Program-made: the position numbers and the translations under genes
Notes under the pieces: model-generated
The model's database searches: none
The model's input: the letters and a program-made list of their open reading frames with translations, nothing else
Told to the model about the DNA's origin: nothing
From: Novosphingobium sp.
GTDB taxonomy: Bacteria; Pseudomonadota; Alphaproteobacteria; Sphingomonadales; Sphingomonadaceae
Length of the DNA: 64,000 nucleotides
Assembly (NCBI GenBank): GCA_016719755.1
Contig: JADJYM010000015.1
Span: forward strand, 1-64,000
Direction of reading: 5' to 3'
Shown: positions 14,901-24,249 of the stretch, one piece after another
Position numbering within the stretch: position 1 is the stretch's first letter
Layout: each line of letters starts with the position of its first letter

Positions 14901-15380
14901 CGCAGTCATTTATCCTTTTAAAACAGTAGGTTAGATGGATTTTGGCGTGGGGTTTTATCCCGACATTTCCGGGGCATGTGAGCAAAATCAATAACTTAGC
15001 TAAGCACCTAGAGACGCTTTTGGCGGGCGTCTATGGGGTGCTTAATACGGCTGTTTCTCAGGTCGCGGATTTCGCGGTCGGAGGATGCGTTGCACCGTTG
15101 TTGCAGATGTGATGGCGATTTGATGCGCATCAGATGGTGCATCGGGCGAGATGGTTAGCGGTTCGAGACAGTTAAGTTCCACCACGCAGTCATTTATCCG
15201 TTTAAAACAATAGTTTAGATGGATTCTGGCGTGCGGTTTTATCCCGACATTTCCGGGGCGTGTGAGTAAAATCAATAACTTAGATAAGCACCCAGAGACG
15301 CTTTTGGCGGGCGTCTATGGGGTGCTTAATGCGGCTGATTCTCAGGTCGCGGATTTTGCGGTCGGAGGATGCGTTGCGGG
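14874..15380. repeat. Tandem 284-bp-spaced direct repeat from tRNA 3' end (att-like)
   Basis: Two copies of a roughly 220-bp unit start at 14874 and 15158. Each begins with GCGGTTCGAG, part of the tRNA T arm, then diverges, then aligns again from CCACCACGCAGTCATTTATCC with about 90 percent identity through 'GGTCGGAGGATGCGTTGC' at 15093 and 15377. The second copy thus has a degraded tRNA 3' end, the usual scar of integration at a tRNA gene. Each unit also contains a hairpin AGACGC/GCGTCT. There is no open gene in 14901-15421. Confidence 0.75.
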
Positions 15381-15421
15381 AATGATGCAGATCTGATGCG
15401 CAGCTCGCGGTGCCACCAAGT

Positions 15422-15781
15422 TCAGGCGAACCCAAGCATCTCGCGCTGGCTGGACCAGTCGATCGGCAGGTTGTTGATCCGCGCCAGGTACTGGCGATTG
15501 AGGTGCGCTGGCTGGCGGCCATCGAGAATGGCTACTGTAATGTCAGGGGCGAGGTAGCCGAGTCGGAGCAGGCTGCAGAAGTACTGGTTAGACAGGCCCA
15601 TGCTCGATGCGGCGGCTTCGAGCGAGGGATTGGCTGGTTCGGCCAGCGCCTTCTTAGCCTGGTGGGCGCGTACGATCAGCTTGATGAGCGAGGGATCGCG
15701 TCGTGCATTGGGCCAGTTTGCCGATGCCGTCGCAATCCGGGTCTCGCCGCTGCAGCGAACCAGTGAAGCGTTGACCATCAC
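15422..15781 (-). CDS. Recombinase C-terminal helix-turn-helix segment
   Basis: This 119-codon frame reads 'DPSLIKLIVRAHQAKKAL' then a helix-turn-helix 'SLEAAASSMGLSNQYFCSLL' and 'LGYLAPDITVAILDGRQPA'. That is the typical C-terminal tail of large serine recombinases of alphaproteobacteria, normally in one polypeptide with the catalytic and zinc-ribbon domains. Here its ATG overlaps the recombinase stop by 4 bp (ATGA). It is either a frameshifted continuation, which I favour given the errors nearby, or a separately translated DNA-binding subunit coupled to the upstream gene. Confidence 0.65.
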   Translation of the reverse strand: MMVNASLVRCSGETRIATASANWPNARRDPSLIKLIVRAHQAKKALAEPANPSLEAAASSMGLSNQYFCSLLRLGYLAPDITVAILDGRQPAHLNRQYLARINNLPIDWSSQREMLGFA

Positions 15782-16837
15782 GGGCCATCGATACCGACAA
15801 AGTGGATGATGATGCGATCGAGATGCACCGTGATTTTCTCGATATATTGCAGGATCACCTCGCGGGTGGGGGAGGGCGTGCCCCAGTTGGCATCGGTGTG
15901 GCTGCGAAGCTGATTGATGATGAGGTTCTCGATATCACCAGCCGGCAGGCGGTGGACAGGAAGCGATAGCCGCTCCTTGTCTTTGCTGCTGATGTAATAG
16001 CGATATCTGGTGCCGTTCTTGTTGGCATGATTGGGTGTCATTCGACGACCATCTCCGTCCCAAAGGATACCTGCGAGCAGGCTGGGATGCCCGGCATGTG
16101 CTGCATGGCGATGAATGACACGATTGCCGGCTAGCAGGGCGCTGACTTGCTCGAACGTAGCCGCATCGATAATGCCCTCATGTTCACCGGGATAAGCCTT
16201 GTCGCGATGGGTGATCTCGCCAAGGTAGATTCGATTGGCGAGCATCTGGTAGAGCGCTCCCCGGCTGAAGTTCATGTTTCCATAGACACGGCCATCCTTG
16301 AAAGTCCGGGCCTTGGTCCGGATGCCTTGCGCGGCCAGCTCAGCCTGAAGTGCATAGACTGAGCCAAGTTCGAGGTAGCGGTTGAAGATGTTCCGTACCC
16401 GCTCAGCCTCCTCCGGTACGATGACGAGTTTGCGTTCCTTGACCGCGTAGCCCAGCGGCACGACCCCGCCCATCCACATGCCCCGGGCCTTCGAGGCCGC
16501 GATCTTGTCGCGTATCCGCTCACCGGTGACCTCGCGTTCGAACTGGGCAAACGAGAGTAGGACGTTGAGGGTCAGGCGTCCCATGCTGTTTGTCGTATTG
16601 AAGGCCTGAGTAACGCTGACGAACGAGGCTCCGCGCTTGTCGAGGGTATCGACGATGCGCGCGAAATCGGCGAGACTGCGGGTAAGACGATCGACCTTGT
16701 AGACGACGATTACGTCGACCTTGCCCGCTTCCACATCGGCAAGCAGTTGCTGCAATCCCGGCCGGTCCATCGAACCGCCAGAGTAGCCGCCATCGTCGTA
16801 AAGCTCGGAACTGGCTTCCCATCCCTCGTGGGTTTGG
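15778..16837 (-). pseudogene. Large serine recombinase, N-terminus removed by IS21
   Basis: The frame reads from the IS boundary at 16837 as Q-T-H-E-G-W..., then 'YDDGGYSGGSMDRPGLQQLL', 'VDVIVVYKVDRLTRSLADFA', 'FNTTNSMGRLTLNVLLSFAQ' and 'FEREVTGERIRDKIAASKAR'. These are resolvase-domain signatures of a site-specific serine recombinase, followed by the recombinase and zinc-ribbon-like regions to 15778. About the first 50 residues are missing, including the catalytic serine that normally sits near residue 10, so it should be inactive. The internal ATG at 16770 does not rescue the domain. It was probably the mobility enzyme of this island. The missing 5' end is not found beyond the second IS21 copy. 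Confidence 0.85.
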
Positions 16838-17004
16838 TGTCAATCGGCGTTCAATCGGGACCCCCTATCGGCGTGCAAAAGGGACCCCCTTGCAGTTGCG
16901 GGGATTGGTTGATGCTGGGCGCGTGTTTCGCGCTGCTGGCGGCGTAGGGAGGGCGTAGCCCGACCGGAGGCGGCAGCAGCGCGAGGGCCGTTTTTCTGAT
17001 TGGG

Positions 17005-17732
17005 TCAGCTGCGGTTTTGAAGCGCCAGCTGTCGTTGCCTGTCTCGACGATATCGCAATGGTGGGTGATGCGGTCGAGCAGCGCAGTGGTCATTTTGGGG
17101 TCGCCGAACACGGTGGGCCATTCGCCGAAGGCCAGGTTGGTGGTGATGATGACCGAGGTCTGCTCGTAGAGCTTGCTGATCAGATGGAACAGCAGCTGGC
17201 CGCCTGAGCGGGCGAACGGTAGATAGCCCAGTTCATCGAGCACCACGAGATCGAGCCTGCCGAGCTGGGCTGCGATGGCGCCAGCCTTGCCGATGCGAGC
17301 TTCTTCTTCGAGCCGAGTGACGAGATCGACCGTGTTGAAGTAGCGTCCGCGAGCGCCAGCACGCACGACGCCGGCGGTGATCGCGGTGGCCAGATGGGTC
17401 TTGCCCGTCCCGGTCCCGCCGATGAGCACGATGTTCCGGCGACCAGGTACGAACGAACCTGCGTGAAGGGGAGCGCACCAGCCCTTCGTTGATCGGGGTC
17501 CCTCGAACACGAAGGCGTCGATGTCCTTGATTACCGGCAGCTTGGCCGCGGTCATGCGATAGCGGATCGAGGCGGCATGACGATGCGCGGCTTCGGCGCG
17601 CAGCAGGTCGGCCAGGATCTCATGGGTCGTGCGCTTGCGCTGCAGCCCGGTGGTGACCGCCTCGTCGAAGGCCCCTGCCATGCCCTTGAGGCCGAGCGAG
17701 CGCATCGCCTCGATCATCTCATGCCGCTGCAT
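17005..17732 (-). CDS. istB: IstB helper ATPase, copy 1, frameshifted
   Basis: IstB is the AAA+ ATPase that helps IstA transpose. The start ATG at 17732 overlaps the istA end. The N-terminus '[20 protein letters not shown]' and the Walker A '[14 protein letters not shown]' (about 17425-17385) are clear, as is the Walker B '[17 protein letters not shown]' (about 17260-17210). Compared with copy 2 it lacks one base in the run at 17500-17502, has one extra base at 17468-17471, and lacks one in the A-run just before the natural stop at 17005-17007, so translation runs on toward the IS end. Correction gives 242 residues. Confidence 0.9.
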
Positions 17733-19233
17733 CGAAGCCTCGCACCGTATCGTAGCGCGCGCAGTCCGCGATCGGCGGGTGGTTGAGCTTGAGGTCGACG
17801 ATCACGTCCAGGGGGCGCTCGGATGGCGGGTCCCGGTATCGGGCCAGAATGTTGAGGATGACCTCGTCGCTGACGGCACCGCTATCAGCGCCTCCCGGAT
17901 CGCGGCCTCGACCGCTTCCAGGCCATCGGTCATTACAGCTGCCAGCACGCGCACGAAGCGGCGGTCGGCTTCATCACCGCTGCCCAGCTTGCGCCGCAGC
18001 CGCGTCAGTGCCGCTGGTAGGTCCCACCCCTGGAAGGGTGCGCCGTTCCGCAAGGCCCCAGGCTTGTTGGCCAGAACGGGCAGGTAATGCCAGGGATCAT
18101 AGATCGTTCGGTCGCGGCCGAAGTGCCGGGCATGTTCGGCGATGACCTCGTCGCCGAGGCGCACGACGATGCAGTCGGCATAGGCGCGGACCTGAACGGA
18201 CCGCCGTGCAGCCTTAGCCATGACCGAGTAGCGGTTGCGGTCGAAGCTGATCAAGCAGGTGCCCGTCACGGCATGCGCGGTCTCGTGGAAGCCGTCAAAC
18301 GGTGCCAGCATCGGCTGCAGGGCTGGTCGTTCGAGCTCCAGCGCTTCGGCAACGGTCAGCTCCTTTTTGCTCGGGATGGGCGTGCCTTACGGCCCAGCGC
18401 AGGCACTCAGCTTCCAGCCACCCGTTGAGCTCCTCGATGCTGGCAAAGCGCAGGCGGGGTTGGAAGAAGCGGCCTCGGATGGTCTGCACCTGGTGTTCAA
18501 CCTGCCCCTTCTCCCACCCCGCCGCTGGCGAGCAGGCCGTGGGCTCGACCATGTAATGATCAGCCATGACCAGAAAGCGGCGGTTGAACACCCGCTCCTT
18601 GCCGATGAACACGGTGGTGACCGCGGTCTTCATGTTATCGTAGATCCCGCGCAGCGGAACGCCACCAAAGAAGGCGAAGCCGCGGGCATGGGCGTCAAAC
18701 ACCATCTCCTGTGTCTCGCGTGGATAGGCTCGGACATAGACTGCCCGCGACGCGCATAGCCGCATATGCGCCACCTTCACCCGCATCGGCTTGCCGGCGA
18801 TCTCTACGTCCTCATGGCTCCAGTCGAACTGGTAGGCCTCGCCGGGCTGGAATAGCAGCGGGATAAAGGCCGGCGCCCCATCGCCAGGATCCTTGCGCCG
18901 TGCTTCCGCCCAGCGCCGGGCGTAGCGCCGGACCGCATCGTAGGAACCCTCGAACCCCTCACGGCACAGCAGGTCATGGATGCGCGTCATCCGCAGCCGA
19001 TCGCGCCGGGGCCGGGCCTCGTTCTCCGTCAGCAGCACATCGAGCCGCTCCTGAAACGGCCCAAGCCTGGGCAGCGGTTGAACCTTGCGCCGATAATCGA
19101 ACGCGCCTTCCGGCGCCCGGATCGCCTTGCGCACCACCTTGCGCGACAGCCGCAGATCCCGCGCAATCGCCTTGATCGACTTCCCATCCGCGTGTTCACG
19201 CCGAATCCGGCAAACTGTCTCCACCACCAACAT
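17719..19233 (-). CDS. istA: IstA transposase, copy 1, frameshifted
   Basis: IstA is the DDE transposase of IS21 elements. From ATG 19233: '[20 protein letters not shown]' with the helix-turn-helix '[20 protein letters not shown]', then the catalytic core with '[14 protein letters not shown]', '[14 protein letters not shown]' and '[19 protein letters not shown]', giving the D, D and E residues. An A-run of five at 18364-18368, against four in copy 2, shifts the frame, and a missing T near 17881 restores it. Net length is 1515 nt, or 504 residues, the same as corrected copy 2. It overlaps istB by 14 nt, typical of the family. Confidence 0.9.
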
Positions 19234-19345
19234 CCCGATCTCGCCACCTGGAAAACCAGACAGCTCGCTACACCATCAGAATGAGGGGTCCCTTTTAGAC
19301 GCCGATCACCCCGCTAACGGGGTCCCTTTTGCACGCCGGTCTACA

Positions 19346-19893
19346 GGCAGTGGTTCGAGCGCCATATGTGCATCACGGCCAATGGCGACAATCTGGCGAG
19401 GCTGAAGCATTTCTATTAGGGCTTCCAGCAAAGGCCAGGTTGTCTCCCGTTCCAAACGGCTGTGGCACCGGTTTGACATCGGGTCATTTGCGTCGTGCGG
19501 GTGGAATGGAAAGACGTTCCAAAGCATTACGGGCTGATTGACTCGCGTGAGCATCCGCCAGACGATCGCGGCCGTGCGCTCTGCAACTGCCGGGCCGGTG
19601 GTGGCCTTGGTGTAGGAAATATCGCCTAGTAACCTACCAGCTTCATCTAGATGGACTTCATCCGTGAGAGGAATGCCAGTGCGTCGTCCTCCACGGTATC
19701 CCAAGTCGCGGGCGATCCATATTGTCTCGGCCCGTGTCTCGATTGCGGCATTGAGCATCGAGGTAAGGTTAGCCCTGCGGCGCTGAGGCGCATCTGAGCG
19801 GTCGTGAATGGTGCAGCGATCTGCCCAAGGATTGAACACGTTGGGAAGCCGCATCTCTGCAAGAGCGGCAACGAAGCTCTTGGGTGTCATCAT
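19346..19893 (-). pseudogene. Uracil-DNA-glycosylase-like protein, 3' end lost to IS21
   Basis: From ATG 19893 the frame reads 'MMTPKSFVAALAEMRLPNVF', 'NPWADRC', 'IWIARDLGYRGGRRTGIPLT', 'SATIVWRML'-like sequence, 'VMLWNVFPFHPHDANDPMSN' and 'LQPRQIVAIGRDAHMALEPL', then enters the IS. These match the uracil-DNA glycosylase fold proteins often called UDG family in mobile islands: the GYRG..GIPLT block corresponds to the base-recognition loop and NVFPFHPH to the central strand. The C-terminal segment that normally carries the H-P-A/S loop is missing, about 40 residues. Its ATG overlaps the stop of the MazG-like gene by 4 bp, so the two formed an operon. Base composition is lower in GC than in the neighbours. 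Confidence 0.72.
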
Positions 19894-20916
19894 GGCAGTT
19901 CCTTCACGTGCAGGCGGCGCCGCTTAAAATCGATTTGGACCTGCGCTCGTCGCCTATCCTGAAGAAAACGAAATGCGTCATACCCTTGCAGGATTGCGTC
20001 TTCCCACATCCAAAGAGGGCATTGAGCCGATTCGTAGCCGGCGACGAATTGACGAACGTGCTTGAGCATGTCCAGTGGGAGGCCACCACGTTTTATACCG
20101 CCAAAAAACTCGAGTTTCTGCGCTTGGCCGAAAATCCACGAGGTCACACCCTCTTCAATGAGGATGGCTCGTGCGCCGTCTTGCGTTTCGTCAACTTCGG
20201 GCCGACTTTTGCGCTTTAATCGAAGCAGGGCGCGCATGACGGGGGACCATCCCAGAACCGCAGCATAGGCATAGTGAAAAACGTCGTGAAACCGATAATC
20301 GTCCTCGACGATCGCGTTGTCGGTGAGTCTGTCGCCAACATAAACGCCGCTGGATTTTTGAAAGACATATTCGCGCCCACGCACCGTCCGCTCATAAATA
20401 TCGATCGCCATCGCACGCGGCAAGCGTTCCTCAGGATCGTCAATCTCATCAAACGCCTGCGGATATTCGCGTTTTTCAGGCCAGCGATCGTTGATCTTTA
20501 CTAGGTTCTTGTATGCTGCACCCTCCAGCGTGACGCCGGCCTCAGTTGCAGCGACTATCAAGCCATGGGCTACGCGCACAAGTTGGGCGCGAAGCTTGTC
20601 TTTGCCGACATGCCCTTGACCTACGTGGTGATGGACTAGCAAGCCCACTTCGCCAGCCAGAGTCAGCAGGCTTTGCTCAGTCGCATTCGTTGGATCTTTG
20701 AAGAGAGGGAAATGCTCCGGCTGCAAGGCGTGGAAGGTCAACCCTGGGTCAAGGGTCTTCCCAGATGCTTCTGCGGCGACTTCATAAAGGGCGAAGCCTG
20801 CTCGCCTACAAACTGCGGCAAGATACCACAGGACGTCTCCTAACTCTTCGGCAACTGCCTCGGCGTAGCCAAGATATGACGACTTATCGCGCAGCTTCTT
20901 TTTGGCTTCACTAAGC
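19890..20916 (-). pseudogene. MazG-like NTP pyrophosphohydrolase, 5' end lost to IS21
   Basis: The frame enters from the IS end at 20916 and reads 'SSYLGYAEAVAEELGDVLWY', the second half of the MazG E-x-x-E-D metal motif. The first helix pair with the other acidic residues is gone. The remaining 340 residues comprise a helical region ('TEQSLLTLAGEVGLLVHHHV') with another 'LAGEVG' acidic patch, then a long C-terminal domain with 'RFHDVFHYAYAAVLGWSPVM', 'GARAILIEEGVTSWIFGQAQ' and 'GYESAQCPLWMWEDAILQGY'. MazG proteins hydrolyse (d)NTPs to monophosphates. The HDVFHYAYA and WEDAI blocks suggest an additional helical, possibly second hydrolase domain. It is the upstream gene of the UDG pair. It might start from an IS-borne TTG, but probably is not functional. 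Confidence 0.65.
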
Positions 20917-21028
20917 TGTAGACCGGCGTGCAAAAGGGACCCCGTTAGCGGGGTGATCGGCGTCTAAAAGGGACCCCTCATTCTGATGGTGTAGCGAGCT
21001 GTCTGGTTTTCCAGGTGGCGAGATCGGG

Positions 21029-22659
21029 ATGTTGGTGGTGGAGACAGTTTGCCGGATTCGGCGTGAACACGCGGATGGGAAGTCGATCAAGGCGATTGCG
21101 CGGGATCTGCGGCTGTCGCGCAAGGTGGTGCGCAAAGGCGATCCGGGCGCCGGAAGGCGCGTTCGATTATCGGCGCAAGGTTCAACCGCTGCCCAGGCTT
21201 GGGCCGTTTCAGGAGCGGCTCGATGTGCTGCTGACGGAGAACGAGGCCCGGCCCCGGCGCGATCGGCTGCGGATGACGCGCATCCATGACCTGCTGTGCC
21301 GTGAGGGGTTCGAGGGTTCCTACGATGCGGTCCGGCGCTACGCCCGGCGCTGGGCGGAAGCACGGCGCAAGGATCCTGGCGATGGGGCGCCGGCCTTTAT
21401 CCCGCTGCTATTCCAGCCCGGCGAGGCCTACCAGTTCGACTGGAGCCATGAGGACGTAGAGATCGCCGGCAAGCCGATGCGGGTGAAGGTGGCGCATATG
21501 CGGCTATGCGCGTCGCGGGCAGTCTATGTCCGAGCCTATCCACGCGAGACACAGGAGATGGTGTTTGACGCCCATGCCCGCGGCTTCGCCTTCTTTGGTG
21601 GCGTTCCGCTGCGCGGGATCTACGATAACATGAAGACCGCGGTCACCACCGTGTTCATCGGCAAGGAGCGGGTGTTCAACCGCCGCTTTCTGGTCATGGC
21701 TGATCATTACATGGTCGAGCCCACGGCCTGCTCGCCAGCGGCGGGGTGGGAGAAGGGGCAGGTTGAACACCAGGTGCAGACCATCCGAGGCCGCTTCTTC
21801 TTTCTGGTCATGGCTGATCATTACATGGTCGAGCCCACGGCCTGCTCGCCAGCGGCGGGGTGGGAGAAGGGGCAGGTTGAACACCAGGTGCAGACCATCC
21901 GAGGCCGCTTCTTCCAACCCCGCCTGCGCTTTGCCAGCATCGAGGAGCTCAACGGGTGGCTGGAAGCTGAGTGCCTGCGCTGGGCCGTAAGGCACGCCCA
22001 TCCCGAGCAAAAGGAGCTGACCGTTGCCGAAGCGCTGGAGCTCGAACGACCAGCCCTGCAGCCGATGCTGGCACCGTTTGACGGCTTCCACGAGACCGCG
22101 CATGCCGTGACGGGCACCTGCTTGATCAGCTTCGACCGCAACCGCTACTCGGTCATGGCTAAGGCTGCACGGCGGTCCGTTCAGGTCCGCGCCTATGCCG
22201 ACTGCATCGTCGTGCGCCTCGGCGACGAGGTCATCGCCGAACATGCCCGGCACTTCGGCCGCGACCGAACGATCTATGATCCCTGGCATTACCTGCCCGT
22301 TCTGGCCAACAAGCCTGGGGCCTTGCGGAACGGCGCACCCTTCCAGGGGTGGGACCTACCAGCGGCACTGACGCGGCTGCGGCGCAAGCTGGGCAGCGGT
22401 GATGAAGCCGACCGCCGCTTCGTGCGCGTGCTGGCAGCTGTAATGACCGATGGCCTGGAAGCGGTCGAGGCCGCGATCCGGGAGGCGCTTGATAGCGGTG
22501 CCGTCAGCGACGAGGTCATCCTCAACATTCTGGCCCGATACCGGGACCCGCCATCCGAGCGCCCCCCTGGACGTGATCGTCGACCTCAAGCTCAACCACC
22601 CGCCGATCGCGGACTGCGCGCGCTACGATACGGTGCGAGGCTTCGATGCAGCGGCATGA
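21029..22659 (+). CDS. istA: IstA transposase, copy 2, frameshifted and with internal duplication
   Basis: Same protein as the copy-1 transposase. The true start is ATG 21029 ('[20 protein letters not shown]'). An extra A at 21134-21136 (three against two) shifts the frame after 'LSRKVVRK', and an extra C near 22562-22567 (six against five) shifts it again near the end. The span of 1631 nt equals 1515 plus 114 plus 2. The duplicated 38 residues lie in the catalytic core around '[20 protein letters not shown]', so even after correcting the indels this copy encodes a 542-residue protein with a disturbed DDE domain. Confidence 0.88.
21687..21914 (+). repeat. 114-bp perfect tandem duplication inside istA
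   Basis: Units 21687-21800 and 21801-21914 are identical head to tail. Copy 1 has one unit only. The period is 38 codons, so the frame is kept. It could be a real slippage event or an assembly fold-over. Confidence 0.9.
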
Positions 22660-23373
22660 GATGATCGAGGCGATGCGCTCGCTCGGCCTCAAGGGCATGG
22701 CAGGGGCCTTCGACGAGGCGGTCACCACCGGGCTGCAGCGCAAGCGCACGACCCATGAGATCCTGGCCGACCTGCTGCGCGCCGAAGCCGCGCATCGTCA
22801 TGCCGCCTCGATCCGCTATCGCATGACCGCGGCCAAGCTGCCGGTAATCAAGGACATCGACGCCTTCGTGTTCGAGGGGACCCCGATCAACGAAGGGCTG
22901 GTGCGCTCCTTCACGCAGGTTCGTTCGTACCTGGTCGCCGGAACATCGTGCTCATCGGCGGGACCGGGACGGGCAAGACCCATCTGGCCACCGCGATCAC
23001 CGCCGGCGTCGTGCGTGCTGGCGCTCGCGGACGCTACTTCAACACGGTCGATCTCGTCACTCGGCTCGAAGAAGAAGCTCGCATCGGCAAGGCTGGCGCC
23101 ATCGCAGCCCAGCTCGGCAGGCTCGATCTCGTGGTGCTCGATGAACTGGGCTATCTACCGTTCGCCCGCTCAGGCGGCCAGCTGCTGTTCCATCTGATCA
23201 GCAAGCTCTACGAGCAGACCTCGGTCATCATCACCACCAACCTGGCCTTCGGCGAATGGCCCACCGTGTTCGGCGACCCCAAAATGACCACTGCGCTGCT
23301 CGACCGCATCACCCACCATTGCGATATCGTCGAGACAGGCAACGACAGCTGGCGCTTCAAAAACCGCAGCTGA
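22646..23373 (+). CDS. istB: IstB helper ATPase, copy 2, one frameshift
   Basis: Same ATPase as in copy 1, starting at ATG 22646 inside the end of istA. The CC at 22908-22909 is one base short of the CCC needed, giving a break after 'INEGLVRS'. The second frame resumes with '[20 protein letters not shown]' and runs through '[20 protein letters not shown]' and '[20 protein letters not shown]' to the natural end 'SWRFKNRS'. Corrected length is 729 nt, 242 residues. This copy preserves the correct 3' end, which copy 1 lacks. Confidence 0.9.
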
Positions 23374-23648
23374 CCCAATCAGAAAATGCCTTCGCGCTGC
23401 TGCCGCCTCCGGTCGGGCTACGCCCTCCCTACGCCGGCAGCAGCGCGAAACACTGCGCCCAGCATCAACCAATCCCCGCAACTGCAAGGGGGTCCCTTTT
23501 GCACGCCGATAGGGGGTCCCGATTGAACGCCGATTGACACCCACCTTGCGCGGTTGAAGCGTAGCGGGCGTCACTTCAAGGTATGTGCGCCAGACAACGA
23601 TTTGACGGACATAACAGGAACATGGGTCTGGTTGGTCGGGTCGGCGAC

Positions 23649-23933
23649 TCAGATCAGCGCGAGTTCAACCCTGCGCCCTACGACGGCTGCCGCGCGCTGC
23701 AGGGTTTCGATGGTGACATTGCCATCAGTCGGATCAAGCACCCGGTCAACCTGGGTTCTGCTGGTATGCATCAATAGCGCCAGTCTCTTCTTGCTAAGCT
23801 TACGTTCGCGCATCGCCTCGGAGAGCTGCCAGGCGATGACTTCCTTGATGGCCTTGGCCTGGAATTCCGCGAGGACGCCTTCTTCTTTGAGGAAGCTGTC
23901 CAGCGTCGGGCCGCGATGTTTGTTCTCAGCCAA
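23649..23933 (-). CDS. XRE-type antitoxin
   Basis: The 94-residue product has an N-terminal segment 'KHRGPTLDSFLKEEGVLAEF' and a helix-turn-helix 'RKLSKKRLALLMHTSRTQVD' followed by 'LDPTDGNVTIETLQRAAAVV', typical of HigA/XRE-like antitoxins paired with Gp49-type toxins. The start is a TTG at 23933, eight bases inside the toxin gene (another in-frame TTG is at 23939), so it is translationally coupled. The antitoxin would bind and neutralise the toxin and repress the operon at the palindrome at 24292-24311. Confidence 0.8.
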   Translation of the reverse strand: MAENKHRGPTLDSFLKEEGVLAEFQAKAIKEVIAWQLSEAMRERKLSKKRLALLMHTSRTQVDRVLDPTDGNVTIETLQRAAAVVGRRVELALI

Positions 23934-24249
23934 TTTCAACCTCCTTCTGGCGCCTTCGGGCCAGTTCCAAATCTTCCGGAGGCGTCTTCTGCGACTTCTT
24001 GATGAACCCATGCAGCGCGTAAAGCTCGCCTTGGTGGAAGCAGAACAACACGCGGGCGATCGTGCCGTCAGGCAGTGACGTTCGCACCTCGAACAGCCCT
24101 TTGCCCATGGGGCGGACCAACGGCATTCCGACCGGCCAACGAAACTGGACCCGCTGCAAGTCCTGACCAATCTCGCGGCGATTGGCTTCGGGGAGGCCGA
24201 GCAACCAGTCGCGAACGGGTACATTGCATGCATCGGTCTGGTAGAACAC
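23926..24249 (-). CDS. RelE/HigB-like toxin (Gp49 family)
   Basis: The 107-residue protein reads 'FYQTDACNVPVRDWLLGLPE', 'GMPLVRPMGKGLFEVRTSLP', 'GTIARVLFCFHQGELYALHG' and 'FIKKSQKTPPEDLELARRRQ'. This is the order of strands and basic residues of the phage-derived Gp49/HigB-type RelE toxins, probable ribosome-dependent mRNA nucleases. The start is GTG 24249, since the upstream ATGs are cut off by a TAA. The toxin precedes the antitoxin, as in higBA. The pair may stabilise the island. Confidence 0.83.
   Translation of the reverse strand: MFYQTDACNVPVRDWLLGLPEANRREIGQDLQRVQFRWPVGMPLVRPMGKGLFEVRTSLPDGTIARVLFCFHQGELYALHGFIKKSQKTPPEDLELARRRQKEVEIG

Follow-up and report, generated by a model that had tools for sequence, protein, structure and literature searches.

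The stretch analysed here, which we call the window, comprises 64,000 nucleotides of Novosphingobium sp. (contig JADJYM010000015.1 of assembly GCA_016719755.1, positions 1 to 64,000). At 19346..20916, between two IS21-family elements, it holds a 1,571-base insert, the remnant of an operon in which a MazG gene carrying a MazG_C domain is followed by a gene of the uracil-DNA glycosylase (UDG) superfamily. The insert is what is left of a mobile, modular cassette, and in intact relatives a single base-acting enzyme accompanies MazG_C: this glycosylase, a 5-hydroxymethyldeoxyuridine (5-hmdU) DNA kinase or, in a few cases, a second type of UDG. The left IS21 copy lies at 16838..19345 on the minus strand (transposase open reading frame 18295-19233, IstB open reading frame 16851-17732) and the right copy at 20917..23539 on the plus strand. 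The two are inverted relative to each other, and their TGT...ACA ends fall at 19345 and 20917, so that the insert is cut exactly at both borders, as the original prediction from the sequence had it. The prediction was also right about base composition: the GC content is 55.9% in the insert, against 65.0 and 64.7% in the IS21 copies and 66.2% in the window. Inspection by eye revealed no target-site duplication at either copy.

The MazG gene (19890..20916, minus strand) lost its N-terminus to the right IS21 copy. The remaining fragment matches PF03819 (E 1.9e-5) and contains a complete MazG_C domain (PF18722, 19899..20462, minus strand, residues 154-341; E 1.2e-77, 260.2 bits against a Pfam cut-off of 29.7); what had been described as an uncommon C-terminal domain is therefore a named Pfam family. 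For residue numbering of both fragments we used the closest intact relative, L039, from a Sphingobium sp. metagenome-assembled genome (blastn identity to the insert of 79.4% over 1,565 bases, 20915-19351). Compared to its 385-residue MazG protein, the fragment lacks residues 1-43, including the invariant E39. The UDG gene (19346..19893, minus strand) has an intact start and lost its C-terminus to the left IS21 copy, retaining approximately residues 1-180 of 225. The missing part (about 45 residues) includes H190-P191-S192, the HPS motif, which is kept in 42/42 sequences (alignment A3). The fragment belongs to the UDG superfamily with a PF03167 match barely above threshold (E 2.4e-5, 24.9 bits against 24.3); used as query, this truncated copy stayed below the NCBIfam cut-offs for UDG family 4 (13.8 vs 250 and 12 vs 125.3 bits). 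The MazG stop and the UDG start share the predicted ATGA overlap (19890..19893, minus strand). A four-base overlap is kept in 69 of the 77 relatives that have both genes (ATGA in 52, GTGA in 12 and TTGA in 5), so the arrangement is not due to chance.

Both lost pieces carry conserved, presumed active-site residues, and hence the copy in the window is a recently broken remnant, damaged as had been predicted; it is dead and performs none of the functions proposed below. Against L039, DNA identity is 77.7% for the MazG fragment (dN/dS 0.074/2.35, with dS near saturation) and 83.1% for the UDG fragment (0.071/0.77). These low ratios indicate that selection acted on both frames up to the time they were broken, and, together with the frames being still open, that the breakage is recent.

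Occurrence of the operon and the enzyme beside MazG_C

Intact two-gene loci, which the original prediction had singled out as the ones that matter, form a conserved operon. Among plasmid records we found a MazG relative in 34 and a UDG relative in 45, and the two are adjacent in 23 of the 34 with MazG (from coordinates; one pair spans the record start). A scan of genome contigs gave 464 loci, of which we kept the best 80, a set in which close relatives of the query profile are over-represented; 77 of these have the UDG gene. The cassette is patchy, mobile and often plasmid-borne: 16 of 149 genomes of the family gave a match (tblastn-type search with the window protein), and PF18722 was found in 20/297 genomes of the order, 12/387 of the class and 5/397 of the phylum (counts that include the source genome), while all 14 control genomes lacked it. 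Some records from the family match Hankyongella and Rhizorhabdus loci in their coordinates, pointing to a sphingomonad host. The patchy distribution is not that of the housekeeping repair operon that would have spoken against a defence role. Viral collections contributed little, with no match to the MazG fragment in phage records (tblastn) and none in IMG/VR with a single sequence. Alignments recovered three IMG/VR loci for MazG and eight for UDG, which makes the pair a rarity in this collection, as far as it was scanned.

The kinase came to light in cyanobacterial plasmids, where the gene order is acyl carrier protein (ACP), helix-turn-helix (HTH) regulator, ImmA, thymidylate synthase (TS), "nucleotide kinase" and MazG_C (the ACP carries an annotation in one plasmid and no name in the other). 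A Streptomyces relative of this kinase is HMUDK_hel, a 5-hmdU DNA kinase (E 2.5e-112). We screened the 36 places from the surveys of class, phylum and order (our own excluded) with a hidden Markov model of four kinases of this sort: 19 have the UDG, 14 the kinase, none both and three neither. Among the latter, a second type of UDG adjoins a TS-like gene in L202 (L211), L208 is a fragment, and no such enzyme could be assigned to L206 even with 14 kb (L215). Among the 80 genome loci, besides the 77 with the UDG, two have the kinase (L110 and L114), none has both, and one has the second UDG type (L100, PF03167 E 1.9e-27). This second type occurs with MazG_C and TS-like genes at L100:11768-12886, with a weak Panacea-like C-terminus, and at L020 and L021. 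In two viral contigs (L158 and L159) a DUF1643 gene is found nearby instead. We do not rely on a Fisher value of 5e-8 (35 places), since it takes no account of relatedness.

We placed the two enzymes on a tree of 63 MazG_C proteins, retained from 113 after removal of near-copies and of rows with fewer than 220 aligned residues, which took out many kinase rows and left five. Own or duplicate places (L001, L148, L024-L027 and L160) were omitted. On this tree the UDG label must change five times, with at least three changes forced by starred branches, which implies that the enzyme beside MazG_C has probably been swapped repeatedly. L154, L157 and L015 are on long branches, as are two of the five kinase rows, and the UDG label was not more clustered on the tree than in shuffles (75/500 equally low). 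We take these data to mean that different enzymes, acting on the same kind of base, occupy a single functional slot. The MazG-UDG pair proposed originally is thus a real operon, yet only a part of something larger, and its glycosylase can be replaced. This either-or beside MazG_C is what is new: neither it nor the MazG_C-UDG pair turned up in the open-licence literature.

The full cassette and its neighbours

In its usual full form, MazG_C-UDG converges on a second operon encoding an ACP-like protein, an XRE-type HTH protein, an ImmA/IrrE protein with a chagasin domain, a papain-like peptidase and a TS-like protein. The complete set of seven, in convergent arrangement, is found in 64 of the 80 genome loci; besides the UDG, the individual counts are 69 for TS-like, 69 for HTH, 68 for the peptidase, 68 for ImmA-type and 67 for ACP-like genes. 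No gene of the second operon is found in ten loci. Eight of these have Nmad2, six of them also with a ThsB-type Toll/interleukin-1 receptor (TIR) gene, and the remaining two (L106 and L118) are short contigs. MazG_C also has one of two partner sets, the TS-like operon or Nmad2 (the latter often with the TIR), while L112 has both sets together with dCTP-deaminase-like, metallophosphoesterase and thymidylate synthase genes. A search of the source genome for the rest of the cassette with an ImmA query gave no match, an empty answer that means little alone.

Pfam matches support several partner assignments, with Peptidase_C1, Peptidase_M78 plus Inhibitor_I42, and HTH found in the partners at L003. 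An I42-type stretch is present in 6/6 ImmA proteins encoded beside the papain-like peptidase and in 0/5 elsewhere (a chosen set), suggesting that peptidase and ImmA protein act as enzyme and inhibitor. The 260-residue protein is, as judged by profile comparison, TS-like: it aligned with ThyA over the catalytic region (hhalign probability 50.6, E 1.6e-4), compared to at most 4.1 across six other families and at most 3.4 across 20 column shuffles. Its presumed catalytic Cys column is invariant in a 34-row alignment, and cyanobacterial relatives are annotated as thymidylate synthase (H99 and H100); HMMER with the same alignment found nothing meaningful among solved structures. A comparison with four "TS" rows is partly circular, since two of them were picked as TS-like relatives. 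The 112-residue ACP-like protein has DSL in 67/67 members and scored a probability of 94 against four proteins, two of them annotated as ACPs. Pfam PP-binding matched 2/32 ACP-like rows, in a set that includes two added annotated ACPs and with the matching rows not specified. Genes for holo-ACP synthase or phosphopantetheinyl transferase are found near the cassette in several relatives.

Fold searches relate the MazG half to dimeric dUTPases of the MazG superfamily (9% identity, with matches covering the N-terminal half of the MazG model only), and a viral fold library returned chiefly MazG/dUTPase-like phage proteins. The cassette protein differs by its fused MazG_C domain and by the replacement of one presumed metal ligand. 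The presumed ligands E39, E67 and D70 are present in 45/45 relatives, and the presumed fourth position, ordinarily Glu, is Ser in 42, Thr in two and Gly in one, so that the set of four acidic metal ligands of MazG pyrophosphohydrolases is incomplete. The cassette UDG has a SMUG1-like fold in structural comparison (approximately 18% identity), with a motif A, ARDLGYRGGRRTG, that appears to differ from the SMUG1 motif. A glycosylase acting on uracil or on 5-substituted uracil in DNA is plausible.

With both halves resembling uracil enzymes, the operon might simply be a dUTPase and a UDG keeping uracil out of the DNA of an element that needs it, with no role in conflict, and "Life without dUTPase" describes a MazG-like protein and a UDG substituting for missing dut/ung. 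We find this very improbable: the cassette is patchy and mobile, three further PF03167 genes exist elsewhere in the source genome, and proteases, regulator and kinase swap would be left unexplained. The likeness to dimeric dUTPases also suits a scenario in which MazG_C and nucleotide enzymes (dCTP deaminase, TS-like) starve the phage of deoxynucleoside triphosphates (dNTPs) and the glycosylase only clears misincorporated uracil, and dCTP-deaminase-like genes do lie beside L029, L034, L112, L217 and L218. The altered metal-site residue argues against such depletion, however, and a 5-hmdU DNA kinase would be senseless as uracil clean-up, so that we give it little credence.

Defence genes are frequent around the cassette. 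At E 1e-10 or better, 236 PADLOC models, including ThsB, Septu, Gabija GajA and a type I methyltransferase, were matched over 138 neighbours (of 160 called proteins, 35 of 40 chosen loci), compared to 20 models over 127 proteins located ~100 kb away in the contigs of other relatives (of 138 called proteins in 15 regions, with one very long protein among those left out). This comparison is an indication only, given the redundancy among models and a control set drawn from other loci. Pfam matches over the 138 neighbours include TIR_2 (9), ThsB_TIR (4), Nmad2 (4) and the type IV secretion coupling protein (4), and annotated plasmid neighbours include Shedu, SIR2, CBASS-type phospholipase, ABC-three-component and caspase-family genes.

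The cassette could instead serve the plasmid itself, with TS-like, ACP, kinase or glycosylase, and MazG_C making or editing modified bases in its own DNA for anti-restriction or transfer. The cassette often lies beside conjugation and partition genes (RepB adjoins it in L039), and the names 5-hmdU kinase, TS and Nmad2 stem from work on base modification in phages. A glycosylase in the kinase's place would nonetheless destroy bases rather than decorate them, and the strong mixing with TIR, Septu, SIR2 and CBASS-type genes also argues against this option, which we regard as improbable. A defence role of the cassette is likely.

Possible role in conflict with phages

Predicted nucleotide-centric systems reportedly go back to Burroughs et al. 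in 2015 (reference 59 of the DefensePredictor study). Their domain vocabulary (TS, 5-hmdU DNA kinase, MazG-C and NMAD) is the same as that of the cassette (PMC13092281), in which MazG_C, a TS-like gene and a base-acting enzyme are found together. We therefore tentatively propose, at somewhat below even odds (roughly 45%), that the cassette is the glycosylase variant of these anti-phage systems, built on 5-substituted deoxyuridine. In the DefensePredictor study, MazG, MazG-C and NMAD are among the predicted, unvalidated defence domains, UDG appears in the legend of the same figure, and TS and 5-hmU kinase domains are newly validated as defensive in E. coli (PMC13092281). The passages of its text that were compared, figures and gene orders apart, contain neither the glycosylase/kinase either-or nor the peptidase-chagasin arm (PMC13092281). 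The original claim that no named system has this pair holds for PADLOC (0 families among the 2023 models at E up to 1) and for NCBIfam, which has no name for it, but several of the domains were already on record as defence candidates.

The cassette couples a predicted nucleotide-cleaving enzyme with a predicted base-removing or base-phosphorylating one, probably for use against viruses. Under the proposed mechanism, the HTH/ImmA pair would silence it and release it upon infection or DNA damage. The TS-like enzyme would then produce, or the phage supply, 5-hydroxymethyl-dUMP or a relative, which would be incorporated into DNA; the SMUG1-like glycosylase would excise that base from phage DNA, leaving abasic sites, and in the kinase variant the base would be phosphorylated instead. 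The dUTPase-like MazG/MazG_C protein would control the pool of dUTP or 5-substituted dUTP, and the papain-like peptidase, restrained by the chagasin domain, could be a second effector or a switch. A bolder version, which we consider unlikely, is immunity by self-made lesions: upon infection the TS-like enzyme, perhaps with an ACP-delivered group, would make a 5-substituted deoxyuridine that enters replicating phage DNA, and glycosylase or kinase would turn these bases into lethal lesions. If so, the two enzymes would be interchangeable warheads on one nucleotide-poison chassis.

Alternatively, the cassette may only survey incoming DNA, with the glycosylase removing the phage's own uracil or hypermodified thymine, MazG stripping modified dNTPs and the TS-like protein acting as sensor or decoy. 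There is precedent in Brig1 and Brig3, anti-phage UDG-superfamily glycosylases encoded on mobile or defence DNA, Brig3 being paired with a helper enzyme, BapA, in an operon of two genes (PMC11078745, PMC13160076), and the SMUG1-like fold would suit such a task. The Brig enzymes, likened here by description and not by sequence, nevertheless act on (glucosyl-)hydroxymethylcytosine, and the passages compared yielded no mention of MazG (PMC11078745, PMC13160076). The TS-like gene, present in 69/80 loci with an invariant presumed catalytic Cys, is also more than a decoy needs, so that surveillance alone is doubtful. Among known systems Thoeris comes close too, as the ThsB-type TIR lies beside Nmad2 and MazG_C-UDG in the six genome loci and in L006, L007, L032 and L033; it is absent from the main cassette form (64/80).

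Several observations weigh against the nucleotide-centric proposal. Ser, Thr or Gly at the fourth ligand position suggests that MazG may not be a normal pyrophosphohydrolase, and we know of no UDG family whose motif A matches that of the cassette (ARDLG). The TS-like assignment is remote, PF00303 being matched by 2/34 members (best E 0.0038), and the hhalign control of TS-like against ACP-like proteins reached 4.1, albeit far under 50.6. As for the defence neighbourhood, 236 vs 20 counts redundant PADLOC models and not proteins, TIR partners of the cassette itself are among the neighbours, and many loci are on plasmids, which hold defence genes regardless.

The cassette family is more interesting than the MazG-UDG pair suggested. 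Gene order alone ties together, as alternatives in one mobile module, two enzymes known from opposing sides of base modification in phages: 5-substituted uracil would be taken out by the glycosylase and modified by the kinase. If they share a substrate, this gives a direct handle on the use of thymine-like modified bases by bacteria in conflict and indicates which partner genes belong together when the many MazG-C, NMAD and TS candidates are tested.

Other features

Several loci carry variants of the cassette. In a Hydrogenophaga plasmid (L035:7220-8675), the cassette UDG family comes after a NUDIX gene and MazG is not annotated, which looks like the replacement of one dNTP hydrolase by another. 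In the viral contigs L158 and L159, an HTH-ImmA-TS-like-MazG_C operon lies beside DUF1643 and terminase genes (terminase shown for L159), so one version is carried in prophages. An archaeal plasmid from Haloarcula (L184) combines genes for HTH, ImmA, C1 peptidase and TS-like proteins with those for a nucleotide kinase, a dTMP kinase and a phosphopantetheinyl transferase, and no MazG gene is annotated in that region.

In the window itself, the transposase gene of the right IS21 copy contains a perfect 114-base tandem duplication (21686-21913), real or an assembly slip, and the IstB_IS21 match came from a fragment of the IstB of this copy. Directly left of the left copy, a serine recombinase gene (15778-16770) and a pair of 114-base repeats (90% identical, 15001-15398) resemble a mobile-element junction. 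To the right of the right copy lies a Gp49-like (DUF891) toxin-type gene (23926-24249).
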